The notes under the pieces are model-generated. The model ran no database searches and had not been told where the DNA came from. It worked only from the letters and a program-made list of their open reading frames with translations. From the NCBI RefSeq assembly GCF_028752835.1, contig NZ_CP087952.1, positions 849,041 through 913,040 of the forward strand: a DNA stretch of 64,000 bases. Reading direction: 5' to 3'. Within the stretch, counting starts at the first letter, position 1; each line of letters starts with the position of its first letter. Source of the stretch: Desulfosarcina sp. BuS5 (GTDB lineage Bacteria; Desulfobacterota; Desulfobacteria; Desulfobacterales; BuS5). Positions 22,436-31,667 of this stretch are shown here, piece after piece. The position numbers and the translations under genes are program-made.

Positions 22436-23368
22436 TTATCTAAAAATTCGTTCCAATCTTTTTCGATAAATCTCAAGAAACCTGTCCTTCAAGCACTCAT
22501 TCAGAAAGCTTTCTTCTATCATTTTTTCAATAGCAGGCGTAATATTATGCAAACGTACCAGGGAGTTGGCGGACTGTTTGTTGGTAAGTCCAAAATGCTC
22601 CGCCAGTTTTATGAAGTTTTTTCTTGAAAACCGGTTTTTTTTCCCCTGTAAACTAAGGCACATTTCCTCACGTTCTTCCGGCAGTACAAGCCTTGAGTTG
22701 ACAAGGTCATATACAGGTGAGAGGTGATAACCGATGCTTTCCTCTTTAATGAGGGAAAAATTCTTTAAATGCGCGTCACCGTTACCCAATACATAATTCA
22801 GAAGCGCCCTTTCAAAAAGCTCAAGCAGGTCGAGACCGGGAACGTTTGAGTATTTTCTGATGACGTTCGCAATTTTTTCGTATGATCCATCATATTTATC
22901 ATTGGTTTGAAGGAGCTGCTGAAAATCCTCCTGTTGAAGTTTTGTTCCGTCTTCTAACCGGTCAAATCGTTTCACGAGATAGGCAAGTTTGCCGTCTGAA
23001 AGCGGAATAAGAGCATGTGATGGAACCGCAATACCGTATGCGGATGCGCTGCACATACAAAGATTCTCATTTTCGGGAAGCGACTCAAATCGTTCTGTTT
23101 GAGGTTTTAGTATGTAAGACCCTCCTCTTTCAATCACAGTCAGTTGATGACTTTTACGTTTATGGATAAGGGAAAGTTTCGGTTGGATACCGGAAATAGA
23201 CATTCTGCCGACCATCTTTTGTGCCTCACCTGCAATATCAGGGGTGCTGAAAGGCACTTTCGGGGATCTTGCCGTTCCAAAGAGTTTTCGGGAGCATCGA
23301 GGATGATAGTCACCAGTTAGTTTCAGGTCGGTCTCAATCTTTTGGCAGGATAAGCATTGATCGTTCAT
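22436..23368 (-). CDS. hipT: HipT-type serine/threonine kinase toxin
   Basis: 310 residues. N-terminus CLSCQKIETDLKLTGDYHPRCSRKLFG, then the Gly-rich loop GRMSISGIQPKLSL with the SIS phospho-site of HipT. Kinase motifs: SYILKPQTERFESLPENE (Lys), VKRFDR, NYVLGNGDAHLKNFSLI (catalytic Asp and Asn), and SPVYDLVNS (metal-binding DL). Length and lack of the N-terminal subdomain fit HipT of three-gene HipBST modules, where HipS supplies that subdomain and inhibits. Known HipT phosphorylates tryptophanyl-tRNA synthetase; the target here is inferred. IS1634-like F1 now separates it from hipS, so its promoter must be local or IS-borne. Confidence 0.88.
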   Translation of the reverse strand: MNDQCLSCQKIETDLKLTGDYHPRCSRKLFGTARSPKVPFSTPDIAGEAQKMVGRMSISGIQPKLSLIHKRKSHQLTVIERGGSYILKPQTERFESLPENENLCMCSASAYGIAVPSHALIPLSDGKLAYLVKRFDRLEDGTKLQQEDFQQLLQTNDKYDGSYEKIANVIRKYSNVPGLDLLELFERALLNYVLGNGDAHLKNFSLIKEESIGYHLSPVYDLVNSRLVLPEEREEMCLSLQGKKNRFSRKNFIKLAEHFGLTNKQSANSLVRLHNITPAIEKMIEESFLNECLKDRFLEIYRKRLERIFR

Positions 23369-23391
23369 AAATTATTTTCCTCATCTATAGT

Positions 23392-23434
23392 CTATAGACC
23401 GTCAGATAATTACCCGATTTTAAAATTTGGTACA
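23392..23434. repeat. 43-bp imperfect direct repeat, copy 1 (upstream of hipT)
   Basis: Matches 26392-26434 with five mismatches; shared core GATTTTAAAATTTGG. Exactly 3000 bp apart, each upstream of a minus-strand gene start (hipT, hipB). May carry promoter or operator sequence. Confidence 0.6.
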
Positions 23435-23458
23435 AAAAATAGAATGAGACGATAATAC

Positions 23459-25559
23459 TAACCCATCTTTTTGAATAGAAAAAACAAACACTATAATTAC
23501 AGTAGGTTACTTTTTTAAAATCTTAGTTATGGCACTACTTTTATTTTTTTTGATAGTTGTTTTGATCGTTCTGCCAGGGAGAGGGCATAACCCTAAAGCA
23601 GAATATATTTTCTGTTGTCGTAATTCCGGGCGTGTGCTTTTTCTTACATGCATAACATTATCATTTCGGCACTGCATGGAAGCTGTTACTCGACTTTGGC
23701 CTGCCAGTTGCTTTCTCAAGTCAGACCAGCTACTGTTTATCCCCGTCTTTTTCAATCGGTAACGGATACTATGTATCAAATGGTAAGCTATGACACTGAT
23801 AAAAATATGACCTGTCACCCGTTTTGTGATTTGGTGAAAAACCGGCCGCATCCCAAGCTCGGATTTCAGTGAACGAAAAACAGCCTCCAGATCCGTTAAC
23901 ATTGTATATGTATGCCATAGAGTAGCTTCATCAAATTCCATATGGGTTGTTCTGAGACAATATACTCCCGGCAAACTATCTTTTGTGTCCGCAAGCGTTT
24001 GACGTGTCCAAAGGATCTTAACAGCATTGCCATTTTTTTCGTTTTTAGATACTTCTATTTTATAATGCTTTGCAGCCTTGGAATATTGCTGTTTCAGACG
24101 ACCTATTTTTTCCAGGACTTTATCGTATTTTTTTAGACATCCTTTTTTATGCAAGCCTGACTCAAGTTTGCTGACAGCCTTTTCAAAGCGAATGGTAAAG
24201 CGATCATTAATAGCCTGTTCTTTTTTTTCCCGCTTTGTAGAGTGACAATACAACAAAACCTCATCATTTTCTGAGTCAATAATTTTTTGCACTTTTACTG
24301 TGCAGTCATTGTCTTGTTTTACCACAACTGCTTCATCTTCATTAAATTCGCGATGATGTTTTCGGCTAACTACAATATATGGATAACTGTTTTCCCTGAG
24401 CCATTTAATATTATCTTCAGTGGCAATTCCGGCATCCATTACTATAGTCGCTTTTGAGGGCTTAAACAGCTCTTGGGATAAATTCTTTCTTTCCAAACCA
24501 ACAATCATTTTTTTTAATGTTGACGGTTCACTTACATTACCCTCAAATACTTTGCTGCGCTTGGGAAAGCCACTGCTGTCCAGCACCAAAGCCAAAGTTA
24601 CCAGTGGACAATCAGAACGTTTCTCTTTGGAATGTCCGCGTTTCCCCAGCTTGTTTGCTTTACTGCTGCCTTCAAAATAAGTGTTGGTAAGATCATAAAG
24701 GGTTATTGTCTCTTGAAATTCAAATAAATTCTTTTCTTGTAAGTATAGATGATTTTCTATGGCTTCCTTATTATTGAGAAGCTGATCAGAGATTTTATAC
24801 ATTTTGTATAGATTAATTTTGTTGAAATCATAATCAATTAATTCACCCAAGCCTGAAACATTCTGGAGCCAGTAATGAGTTGCCAGTTCACTACCTGGTT
24901 GACACATACGACCTATTATTGTACCGGTTGCTGCTGCGAGCTGAGGGCCATTGAATCCCAGGGCTTTTAGTTCTTCACCAAGTTTTAAAAAAACAAACGC
25001 TTCCAGCGCCACATGTTCACAGCTTACACTGCGTGGCCTGAACATTTCCAGGCTGTCTACATCTACCTCGCGATAATCCGGCTTATTATTTTCAGCTTTA
25101 TTTTTGTGTTGCGCGTGAATAATCCGGGCTGCATAATTTTGAGCAAGCTCCTCTATTTCTTCAGAAATTTTGAAAAAACTCTGCTGGCCACTGATAATCT
25201 CCTGAATGCGTGAAGATAATTCTGGCCATTGATCCCGTGGCAGAGAAAAAGCCGTACCGAGATTAATTAATGTGTGCTGGCTGACTCCCTTTGCAGTTCG
25301 TTCGGATTGAACCAATCTATAGGTGTAATATTGTTTGCCATCTTTTCGACTTTTTATTGTGGTTCTTCTAATATACATGTTGCCCAATATAGGCGGATGT
25401 CAATAAAAAGTCAAGATATTTTTTATTTTATGGCACTACATTGGTAAAGCCAGAGCAAATTATTTTTAACCTATTAAAATCATTCAAATTAAATTTTTGA
25501 AAATTCTAAAATAAGGCTTATTTTGAGCATTTGCCCATATAACTCAAAAAGATGGGCTA
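23459..25559 (-). mobile_element. IS1634-like element F1
   Basis: 2101 bp with ends TAACCCATCTTTTTGA and complement ending AAAGATGGGCTA. One large transposase gene on the minus strand. A 5'-truncated copy F2 lies at 30150-31667. It sits between hipS and hipT; no target duplication is evident (ATAATAC left, ATCGTAT right). Confidence 0.85.
23507..25378 (-). CDS. IS1634-family transposase (F1)
   Basis: About 623 residues from ATG 25378 (MYIRRTTIKSRKDGKQYYTY). DDE core of the IS4/IS1634 group: TITLYDLTNTYFEGSS (Asp), ATIVMDAGIATEDN (Asp), a long beta-rich insertion with SRKHHREF, and YTMLTDLEAVFRSLKSELGMRPVFH containing the Glu with the family E-x-x-F-R spacing. Intact and near the usual family length of about 550-620 residues. 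Confidence 0.9.
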   Translation of the reverse strand: MYIRRTTIKSRKDGKQYYTYRLVQSERTAKGVSQHTLINLGTAFSLPRDQWPELSSRIQEIISGQQSFFKISEEIEELAQNYAARIIHAQHKNKAENNKPDYREVDVDSLEMFRPRSVSCEHVALEAFVFLKLGEELKALGFNGPQLAAATGTIIGRMCQPGSELATHYWLQNVSGLGELIDYDFNKINLYKMYKISDQLLNNKEAIENHLYLQEKNLFEFQETITLYDLTNTYFEGSSKANKLGKRGHSKEKRSDCPLVTLALVLDSSGFPKRSKVFEGNVSEPSTLKKMIVGLERKNLSQELFKPSKATIVMDAGIATEDNIKWLRENSYPYIVVSRKHHREFNEDEAVVVKQDNDCTVKVQKIIDSENDEVLLYCHSTKREKKEQAINDRFTIRFEKAVSKLESGLHKKGCLKKYDKVLEKIGRLKQQYSKAAKHYKIEVSKNEKNGNAVKILWTRQTLADTKDSLPGVYCLRTTHMEFDEATLWHTYTMLTDLEAVFRSLKSELGMRPVFHQITKRVTGHIFISVIAYHLIHSIRYRLKKTGINSSWSDLRKQLAGQSRVTASMQCRNDNVMHVRKSTRPELRQQKIYSALGLCPLPGRTIKTTIKKNKSSAITKILKK

Positions 25560-25607
25560 ATCGTATATCTTCGACCGATAACGCAATGGAATTATTAATA
25601 TGACGGT

Positions 25608-25934
25608 CTATAGCGGAATTATCTTTACCGCCCCTATGCAGTCTCCGCAAGTGGCAAGAAGAATATCAAAGACGTTTTCCGGGTCTATTTTCAGAGTACG
25701 GCTTGTAATATCCAGCAGCCAGCCTTCCGGGATGAGGCCAAGGAAAAAGGGGAAAAGAGACTCACTTTCATACGGCTTATCTGCCAAAGGAAGAGTAAGG
25801 CTCACAGGTTGAGCATCTGGCAAAGAAAGATAGTCTTCGTGGTAACTGAAGCGATACCCCCTGTTGTTTTTTTCCAGCAGGGCAGCTTTTGTATCCCTTA
25901 GATATACGTCTGCGCTGTTTCTTTTATTTTTCAT
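25608..25934 (-). CDS. hipS: HipS-like small HipA-N1 antitoxin
   Basis: 108 residues equal to the N-subdomain 1 of HipA: VYLRDTKAALLEKNNRGYRFSYHEDYL, then LTLPLADKPYESESLFPFFLGLIPEGWLLD. In HipBST modules this small protein (HipS) neutralises HipT. It overlaps hipB by 11 bases and ends at its own stop, before F1 begins. Together with hipB upstream and hipT beyond the IS this identifies a HipBST operon. Confidence 0.82.
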   Translation of the reverse strand: MKNKRNSADVYLRDTKAALLEKNNRGYRFSYHEDYLSLPDAQPVSLTLPLADKPYESESLFPFFLGLIPEGWLLDITSRTLKIDPENVFDILLATCGDCIGAVKIIPL

Positions 25935-26151
25935 TCGGTGCGTTTACTTCAGATTTCGGTCGCAGATCAACAGGGCCAAGCGTTTTTCCAAACAATTGAA
26001 GCACCTGATTCACCTTGTCTATTCTTAATGTCGATTTATCCTGTTCCAGCTCCCTTATAAATCTCAACCCTACTCCGGCCTTACTGGCCAGATCGGCTTG
26101 GGTCAACCGGTGGATCTTACGCTGCTTTTTTACAAAATCACGCAATGTCAT
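25924..26151 (-). CDS. hipB: HipB-like XRE antitoxin/repressor
   Basis: 75 residues. Helix-turn-helix MTLRDFVKKQRKIHRLTQADLASKAGVGLRFIRELEQDKSTLRIDKVNQVLQLFG (quoted as MTLRDFVKKQRKIHRLTQAD and continuing RELEQ...). The short acidic-polar tail follows LGPVDLRPK. First gene of the hipB-hipS-hipT operon; expected to repress it through the palindromes at 26202-26302. Confidence 0.85.
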   Translation of the reverse strand: MTLRDFVKKQRKIHRLTQADLASKAGVGLRFIRELEQDKSTLRIDKVNQVLQLFGKTLGPVDLRPKSEVNAPNEK

Positions 26152-26162
26152 TATTTATACCA

Positions 26163-26302
26163 TACCCGACAGAAAACATGCTTCCGTTATTGTCTGTTTG
26201 TTATACCCTTTCGGGTACTTTGCTAAAAATATAGCGATTTATTATACCCCTATGGGTATATTTTTAATTTCTTAACAAGAAAATAATACCTATAGGGTAT
26301 AA
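26163..26302 (-). promoter_or_regulatory. Phased HipB operator array
   Basis: Palindromic sites of the form TATACCC-N4-GGGTATA: TTATACCCTTTCGGGTAC at 26202-26219, TATACCCCTATGGGTATA at 26243-26260, and ATAATACCTATAGGGTATAA around 26285-26302. GGGTA half-sites start at 26213, 26254 and 26295, each 41 bp apart. A lone left half-site TACCC at 26163 continues the same 41-bp phase. They sit 12-150 bp upstream of the hipB start, consistent with co-operative repressor binding on one DNA face. Confidence 0.75.
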
Positions 26303-26391
26303 TGTCAAGTGTAAAATAGGGTTTGGATATTGTATATAGGGTATTTTGGCACAACGTCCAATTGTTGAACAAATGTGCTTTTATAGATTGT

Positions 26392-26648: not shown

Positions 26649-27957
26649 CAGTAGTGTCCGGTTAAGTTTTGGCATATAGCATTTGCTCTTTGATAATCAG
26701 ATTATTAGACCATACGTTTTTTTCGTCAGTACGTAATTCGTTCTGGATGGTATTTCTAAGCTGACGAATCCTCTTTATTGATACAGGTTCATTAAACTGT
26801 TCATGGCAGTATATGGCCATAAGCAGGTAGGTTATTAACCCCGCAAGGATTTGAACCATCAGGCCATATCTACTGTGAGCAATCAAGTGGTACACTTTTA
26901 AATGTTTCTTCCACCATTTGAAAAAAGTTTCGATATCCCATCTAAGCTTATAAACGGTTGCAACCTGCTCGGCTGTAAGGTCATAACGATCAGTTGCCAC
27001 AAAATATTTGACACCGGCAATTTTATAACCAACCAGTCGAACCGGCTTTCTGGTCTGGTTTACCCCAGGAGTGCCAAGAAGAACCACAGCATCATAAAAA
27101 ATATAGCTGTCGGGATCAACAGGCTGCTCTTTGATAATAGTTCTTGTTGTTTTCGCTTTGATGCGGCAAACAAAATGTTTTTTTTCATCCTGAAGAAGAT
27201 CAAAATCCTTATGTGATTGATACCCCCGATCCATGATTCCTGTTTGGCCTTTTGTAAGGATAGACCTGACAAAGGGGCGTTCAGCGCCATTTCCATTTGT
27301 CAGATGAATTTTTATAGGAATCTTGCGATTGACATCAAAGCCGAAATGGCCTTTTGCTTTTTTAGCGCCTTTTCTGTAATCAGCCCAGTACATGGACAGA
27401 ACTGCATCAATTAAAGATCCATCAATGGAAACGAGTTCACCGAGATCTGAATAATTTGATGGTAAAGCATTTTGTGCCTGGCTGCAAAGAGCTTGAAAAA
27501 CATATTCAAGCTGTTCAAGCCCTCGAGAATTGATAATTTCGGAAAAACTGCTACGACTGATCCCTCCATCTGGAGCGACACATTCTTTGGCAAAATCGTC
27601 TTCTTTAAGGTGTTGAATAAGATCACGAGCTGATTCATGTTCTTGTAGATGGAAAAATATCAGTGCGTGAAGCTGATCTTCAAAAGTCATTTTCAATGGC
27701 CTGTGACCTCGGGATTTAAGCTGTGGCGTGTCAGGAAAAATCTTTTGCAAAGGTTTGAGAAATCGAGCATGAGATTGGGGATTAAAATTCTTTTTTGGGA
27801 TATTGAATATGTCCATTTTTGTCTTAACTCCTTGTTATAATTATAATTTTATAACAAAACGATAAAAAATTTTTATTTGGTTTGTCAAGTAAAAAATGAA
27901 CATTTTTCTAATTTTTTTATCCCATATAACATGCAAAAACCTAACCGGACACTACTG
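26649..27957 (-). mobile_element. IS4-family element, copy I2
   Basis: 1309 bp, same ends as I1. Perfect 9-bp target duplication ATCCAGAAT at 26640-26648 and 27958-27966, so this is a clean insertion. One extra base relative to I1 lies upstream of the transposase. Confidence 0.95.
26662..27816 (-). CDS. IS4-family DDE transposase (I2)
   Basis: 384 residues, identical in translation to the I1 transposase; all catalytic motifs intact. Confidence 0.93.
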   Translation of the reverse strand: MDIFNIPKKNFNPQSHARFLKPLQKIFPDTPQLKSRGHRPLKMTFEDQLHALIFFHLQEHESARDLIQHLKEDDFAKECVAPDGGISRSSFSEIINSRGLEQLEYVFQALCSQAQNALPSNYSDLGELVSIDGSLIDAVLSMYWADYRKGAKKAKGHFGFDVNRKIPIKIHLTNGNGAERPFVRSILTKGQTGIMDRGYQSHKDFDLLQDEKKHFVCRIKAKTTRTIIKEQPVDPDSYIFYDAVVLLGTPGVNQTRKPVRLVGYKIAGVKYFVATDRYDLTAEQVATVYKLRWDIETFFKWWKKHLKVYHLIAHSRYGLMVQILAGLITYLLMAIYCHEQFNEPVSIKRIRQLRNTIQNELRTDEKNVWSNNLIIKEQMLYAKT

Positions 27958-30149: not shown

Positions 30150-31667
30150 TAACCCATCTTTTTGAATAGAAAAAACAAACACTATAATTACAGTAGGTTA
30201 CTTTTTTAAAATCTTAGTTATGGCACTACTTTTATTTTTTTTGATAGTTGTTTTGATCGTTCTGCCAGGGAGAGGGCATAACCCTAAAGCAGAATATATT
30301 TTCTGTTGTCGTAATTCCGGGCGTGTGCTTTTTCTTACATGCATAACATTATCATTTCGGCACTGCATGGAAGCTGTTACTCGACTTTGGCCTGCCAGTT
30401 GCTTTCTCAAGTCAGACCAGCTACTGTTTATCCCCGTCTTTTTCAATCGGTAACGGATACTATGTATCAAATGGTAAGCTATGACACTGATAAAAATATG
30501 ACCTGTCACCCGTTTTGTGATTTGGTGAAAAACCGGCCGCATCCCAAGCTCGGATTTCAGTGAACGAAAAACAGCCTCCAGATCCGTTAACATTGTATAT
30601 GTATGCCATAGAGTAGCTTCATCAAATTCCATATGGGTTGTTCTGAGACAATATACTCCCGGCAAACTATCTTTTGTGTCCGCAAGCGTTTGACGTGTCC
30701 AAAGGATCTTAACAGCATTGCCATTTTTTTCGTTTTTAGATACTTCTATTTTATAATGCTTTGCAGCCTTGGAATATTGCTGTTTCAGACGACCTATTTT
30801 TTCCAGGACTTTATCGTATTTTTTTAGACATCCTTTTTTATGCAAGCCTGACTCAAGTTTGCTGACAGCCTTTTCAAAGCGAATGGTAAAGCGATCATTA
30901 ATAGCCTGTTCTTTTTTTTCCCGCTTTGTAGAGTGACAATACAACAAAACCTCATCATTTTCTGAGTCAATAATTTTTTGCACTTTTACTGTGCAGTCAT
31001 TGTCTTGTTTTACCACAACTGCTTCATCTTCATTAAATTCGCGATGATGTTTTCGGCTAACTACAATATATGGATAACTGTTTTCCCTGAGCCATTTAAT
31101 ATTATCTTCAGTGGCAATTCCGGCATCCATTACTATAGTCGCTTTTGAGGGCTTAAACAGCTCTTGGGATAAATTCTTTCTTTCCAAACCAACAATCATT
31201 TTTTTTAATGTTGACGGTTCACTTACATTACCCTCAAATACTTTGCTGCGCTTGGGAAAGCCACTGCTGTCCAGCACCAAAGCCAAAGTTACCAGTGGAC
31301 AATCAGAACGTTTCTCTTTGGAATGTCCGCGTTTCCCCAGCTTGTTTGCTTTACTGCTGCCTTCAAAATAAGTGTTGGTAAGATCATAAAGGGTTATTGT
31401 CTCTTGAAATTCAAATAAATTCTTTTCTTGTAAGTATAGATGATTTTCTATGGCTTCCTTATTATTGAGAAGCTGATCAGAGATTTTATACATTTTGTAT
31501 AGATTAATCTTGTTGAAATCATAATCAATTAATTCACCCAAGCCTGAAACATTCTGGAGCCAGTAATGAGTTGCCAGTTCACTACCTGGTTGACACATAC
31601 GACCTATTATTGTACCGGTTGCTGCTGCGAGCTGAGGGCCATTGAATCCCAGGGCTTTTAGTTCTTC
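30150..31667 (-). mobile_element. IS1634-like element F2, 5'-truncated
   Basis: Identical to the left 1518 bp of F1 apart from rare substitutions; the part encoding the transposase N-terminus is replaced at 31668 by the end of an IS66 element. Confidence 0.88.
30198..31667 (-). pseudogene. IS1634-family transposase, N-terminally truncated (F2)
   Basis: Carries the F1 protein from EELKALGFNGPQLAAATG onward, including all three catalytic residues, but lacks the first roughly 135 residues. The frame runs on into IS66 terminal DNA, which would add about 30 unrelated residues (MISRVPAKNRHL...) if translated. Inactive remnant. Confidence 0.85.

Follow-up and report, generated by a model that had tools for sequence, protein, structure and literature searches.

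Why do palindromes upstream of a hipB gene in Desulfosarcina sp. BuS5 recur at an interval of 41 bp? HipB-family regulators control kinase toxins tied to antibiotic persistence, and the layout of their operators sets how tightly the toxin is repressed. To address this question, we analyzed the locus within a 64-kb stretch of DNA (the window) and compared it with the upstream regions of other hipB genes. An earlier note had read the repeats as HipB operators phased at exactly 41 bp.

The BuS5 hipBST locus and its candidate operators

The features of the locus are listed below in window coordinates.

22436..23368, minus strand: hipT, predicted HipA_C kinase toxin (Pfam HipA_C, 3e-49) with an SIS motif (MSISGIQPKL)
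23388..25607 (approximate boundaries), minus strand: IS1634-like element of ~2.2 kb between hipS and hipT; transposase at 23507-25387
25608..25934, minus strand: hipS, HipA N-terminal-domain antitoxin subunit (Pfam Couple_hipA, 1.5e-26), its 3' end changed by the insertion sequence
25924..26151, minus strand: hipB, 75-aa Cro/434-type HTH regulator (Pfam HTH_19 and HTH_3), recognition helix region GVGLRFIRELEQDK
26161..26178, minus strand: operator 4, degenerate; the start-proximal half alone is kept (TACCC at 26163-26167 on the plus strand), in the 41-bp register
26202..26219, minus strand: operator 3, AGTACCCGAAAGGGTATA, center 26210.5
26243..26260, minus strand: operator 2, TATACCCATAGGGGTATA, perfect arms, center 26251.5
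26285..26301, minus strand: operator 1 (promoter operator), TATACCCTATAGGTATT, 17 bp, center 26293
26280..26308, minus strand: predicted hipB promoter from a consensus scan (TTGACA, 17-bp spacer, TATTTT), absent from the earlier note; its spacer contains the distal operator

The genes follow the order hipB-hipS-hipT and place the HTH, HipA-N, and HipA-C domains on three different proteins, with the insertion sequence between hipS and hipT. The closest solved relative of HipT is HipT(Lp) (187 bits; 97 bits for E. coli O127 HipT), and that of HipB is HipB(Lp) (8ezt); HipT of Legionella is described as an injected effector. By gene order and by HipT and HipB similarity, the locus is classed as a predicted HipBST tripartite toxin-antitoxin system of the HipBST-Lp subfamily. 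HipB is 46 to 84% identical to 21 aligned homologues and hipS is 87 to 90% identical to the closest loci, its nearest relatives being from Desulfobacterales and other deltaproteobacterial MAGs. In the homologous loci L002-L006, the hipB-hipS-hipT order is uninterrupted. In the window, the IS1634-like insertion changes the last hipS codons and parts an apparently intact hipT from the hipB promoter; since the element lies between the array and hipT, the toxin may have lost its autoregulation in this locus. The window also contains a second, partial copy of the IS1634-like element at 30150-31667 (99.9% over 1.5 kb) and, ~350 bp upstream of the distal operator, a second transposase gene (DDE_Tnp_1, 26662-27816, minus strand). 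Two other Desulfobacterales loci with close hipS relatives, L007 and L008, have no recognizable hipB upstream, and hipT of L008 is apparently truncated. A search of viral contigs with HipS and a search of phages with HipB gave no match; seven distant HipB relatives were found in viral contigs.

The repeats form a four-member array upstream of hipB, made up of two 18-bp palindromes, one 17-bp palindrome, and one half-site, centered at -142.0, -100.5, -59.5, and about -18 relative to the hipB start on its own strand. Both middle sites are TATACCC-N4-GGGTATA palindromes, while the distal one has the shortened form TATACCC-N3-GGTATT. On recheck, the half-site positions and 41-bp intervals given by the earlier note proved exact, with GGGTA starting at 26213, 26254, and 26295 and TACCC at 26163, 26204, and 26245. 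The distal palindrome is 17 bp long, so that its other half-site lies at 26287, versus 26286 under strict 41-bp spacing. The half-site of operator 4 is also seen in L003, L004, and L005, at -18 to -19. An additional GGGTA at 26339-26343 is 44 bp from the distal operator and off register, so we did not count it as a member of the array; in L005, this position is occupied by a complete fifth site that keeps the register.

Conservation of the sites and of the 40-42-bp step

We took upstream regions from loci of HipB relatives in Desulfobacterota, Nitrospirota, Bacteroidota, Bacillota, and Bdellovibrionota, and the family set was composed of 79 nonredundant loci with a HipB-profile score of 95 bits or more. 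TATACCC-N4-GGGTATA sites were present upstream of hipB in at least two copies in 75 of the 79 loci and in at least three copies in 54, and 132 of 139 adjacent steps measured 40 to 42 bp. Dinucleotide-shuffled upstream regions yielded 0.17 loci per round with at least two sites, compared with the 75 real ones. A motif-free search for three similar palindromes at equal distances placed 67 of the 79 loci above all 20 shuffles, with a mean step of 39.5 to 41.5 bp in 66 of these. Steps outside the rule within this family were mostly 51 to 52 bp, one turn longer. Chance is excluded as the origin of the array, because matches to TATACCCNNNNGGGTATA at up to three mismatches are confined to it (three in the 64-kb window, all of them array sites), the perfect TATACC-N6-GGTATA occurs once in the 4.18-Mb genome, as the central site, and the shuffles are near zero.

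The earlier note had named the lack of the palindromes upstream of close homologues as evidence against its reading; the array was found upstream of nearly all close homologues and many distant ones, at 40 to 42 bp. With both the motif and the motif-free search, it was absent upstream of distant HipB types, and no convincing array was detected, at the search sensitivity used, in L006, L162, L167, L044, or L016-L022.

The motif itself changes with the protein. In a sister group of HipB (L130, L157-L161, L163, and L166), in which ALTVIRKIEQGK replaces GLRFVRELEQGK in the recognition-helix region, the palindrome is TATATGTA-N2-TACATATA at a step of ~40 bp, a pattern that reads as a natural specificity switch. 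L156 has TATATCA-N4-TGATATA at a 40-bp step. Conservation upstream of hipB homologues and a motif that tracks the recognition helix thus support the identification of the 41-bp repeats as a candidate HipB operator array, as the earlier note had supposed. Repeats of the TCGATCGA type occur near the hipB start in L116, L120, and L122, and the helix reads SFSFVNQVE in L116 and L122.

A longer step characterizes one fused-HipA family, in which all 12 of 12 arrays are spaced at 49 to 51 bp, about one turn more. These HipBA-type loci (L028-L032, L034, L038, L043, L046, L050, L066, and L067) likewise have three equidistant palindromes upstream of hipB, in most of them with a TTCCC/TTACC-N4-GGGAA/GGTAA core; their HipB proteins are more distant, and their fused HipA is from a different family. 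We considered whether a split versus a fused toxin determines the spacing and rejected this, because the fused HipT-like toxins of Bdellovibrionota (L114, L115, and L117-L119) keep 40-bp arrays, so that being fused does not in itself fix the step. Whether a locus has 40 or 50 bp goes instead with the family of the toxin (and of HipB) (Fisher p ~4e-9, for groups that are clades and hence not independent events). Protein family and spacing are inherited together, and either HipB or the toxin may set the step. Tentatively, and with more doubt than confidence, we suggest that spacing in the HipB superfamily could be a conserved, turn-quantized property arising from HipB-toxin geometry, with ~40 to 41 bp (four turns) where the toxin is of the HipT family, whether split or fused, and 49 to 51 bp (five turns) for the other HipA family.

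Promoter position, helical phase, and alternative explanations

The predicted TTGACA/TATTTT promoter is directed toward hipB, and its 17-bp spacer, the classical position of a repressor operator, is fully taken by the distal palindrome; the palindromic sites thus overlap the promoter, and in the window the remaining ones lie in the leader. The same operator-in-spacer layout is seen in L002-L005 and L009, and among the homologous loci, there are 26 cases of a TTGA[CT] hexamer directly adjoining a site on its left. Which site bears the promoter varies: it is the distal one in the window and in L002-L004, the second of five in L005, and the start-proximal one in L009 and L014. A TAnnTTTG element is found 11 bp upstream of the center of the start-proximal site in eight loci. 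Since the promoter shifts relative to the array while the step stays constant, the step appears to serve protein-protein geometry on the DNA, which argues that spacing follows the protein array rather than the promoter.

The linkers between sites are 0.36 to 0.40 identical across loci, a small excess over the 0.32 to 0.36 of shuffled linkers. Because they are alike little beyond base composition, the spacing is not merely inherited sequence and was probably itself selected so that the repressor can assemble in an ordered way on the DNA. The AT content of the linkers rises and falls every ~10 bp, in register with the site centers; with the four site-flanking bases excluded, it peaks at 0.86 in mid-linker versus 0.70, a difference of 0.156, where permutation reached at most 0.056. 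Such a pattern would be expected of DNA that curves to one side. The proposal that 41 bp is about four turns, placing the dimers on one face, stands as an approximation. At the B-DNA helical repeat of 10.5 bp/turn, 40 to 41 bp corresponds to 3.8 to 3.9 turns (3.9 for 41 bp), leaving a residual rotation of about -70 to -35 degrees per step. Exact stacking on the same face would need a local repeat of 10.0 to 10.25 (~10.2 for the 41-bp step), at which the step is exactly four turns. Not every member of the superfamily shows helical phasing, as the 28/39/28-bp steps of E. coli hipBA are not whole turns.

Could the operators act independently, with the regular step reflecting a minimal footprint or an ancestral duplication and no cooperative or phased complex? 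HipB of Legionella shifts 50-bp fragments that carry a single operator, the apparent affinities being similar, and cooperativity was not claimed (PMC10653801), as this explanation would have it. However, independent sites would tolerate drift in length, and the step is held at 40 to 42 bp across five phyla while linker identity is near that of shuffled sequence; the clustering of the exceptional steps at 51 to 52 bp and the in-register modulation of linker AT content also speak against it. We regard independent operators as unlikely.

The remaining explanations concern what the repeats are. That they are sites for a different regulator, or leftovers of the neighboring insertion sequences, is suggested by the mobile elements flanking hipBS on both sides, but 75 of the 79 loci have the array ahead of hipB regardless of insertion sequences, it is missing from distant HipB types, and its core changes with HipB, making either reading very improbable. 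A role for the repeats in the leader RNA of hipB, as hairpins or as an attenuator, would fit the location of three of the four window sites downstream of the predicted promoter and the resemblance of one site to a terminator stem on the plus strand. The terminator-like tail, however, is on the strand opposite hipB, the motif follows the HipB recognition helix, and the -35-like hexamer that abuts the start-proximal site in L009 and L014 puts the other sites upstream of the transcription start. On these grounds we rejected RNA hairpins, to which we give next to no credence.

Relation to known systems and a proposed mechanism

Operator arrays upstream of hipB are known in kind. The hipBST operon of Legionella pneumophila has three evenly spaced 18-nt inverted-repeat operators, O1-O3, of which O1 overlaps the promoter; HipB binds each of them in EMSA, and HipS and HipT were tested on the HipB-operator complex (PMC10653801). 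The inter-operator gaps are 53 bp in nearly all Legionella species, and the six-nucleotide repeats are described as conserved within the genus, two of the three sites being asymmetric; detecting no difference in affinity among the sites, the authors suggest intermediate occupancy rather than cooperativity (PMC10653801). The BuS5 locus shares with it the evenly spaced operators of the 18-bp class upstream of hipBST, the HipT subfamily, and a promoter-overlapping site, but by the published description differs in its gaps, which are 22 to 24 bp here (40 to 42 bp center to center) versus 53 bp. In E. coli, HipB represses hipBST, and leaky expression of hipBST or hipBT is already enough for repression (PMC10627512). 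In E. coli K-12 hipBA, there are likewise several 18-bp palindromic HipB operators in the promoter, namely four TATCC-N8-GGATA sites, O1-O4, at steps of 28, 39, and 28 bp; HipB of E. coli is reported to bind its operators cooperatively and to bend the DNA by 70 degrees (PMC3376134, PMC3920265). The BuS5 array differs from it in half-site (TATACCC versus TATCC) and in step (41 versus 28/39/28 bp), and hipBA consists of two genes with a fused HipA. In the literature searched, with most subscription papers beyond reach, we found no report of the TATACCC motif, the 40-42-bp rule, its phylum range, or the 49-51-bp sister rule; the motif, the spacing rule, and its breadth thus appear undescribed.

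Direct observation gives the sites and their spacing, conservation in five phyla with dissimilar linkers, a change of motif at constant spacing, and a promoter embedded in the array. We think it likely that the repeats are an autoregulatory phased HipB operator array of the HipBST operon, on which a cooperative complex would form. Binding, bending, and wrapping by HipB at the array are inferred from these patterns. One HipB dimer would bind each palindrome, and the operator within the -35/-10 spacer, judging by its position, would block RNA polymerase directly. The other operators, spaced about four turns apart, would bring neighboring HipB-(HipS-HipT) complexes onto nearly one face and into contact, and this contact could in turn make binding cooperative and curve or wrap the promoter.

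The array also provides a sequence signature, at least three TATACCC-N4-GGGTATA sites at 40 to 42 bp, by which such operons can be found and annotated, as well as a lead toward the reason for the ~50-bp step in some fused-HipA operons. If spacing is indeed turn-quantized, the arrays would serve as a framework on which antitoxin and toxin assemble in order and wrap the DNA. An invariant step over five phyla, with changing motif and linkers, points to a conserved higher-order repressor complex.
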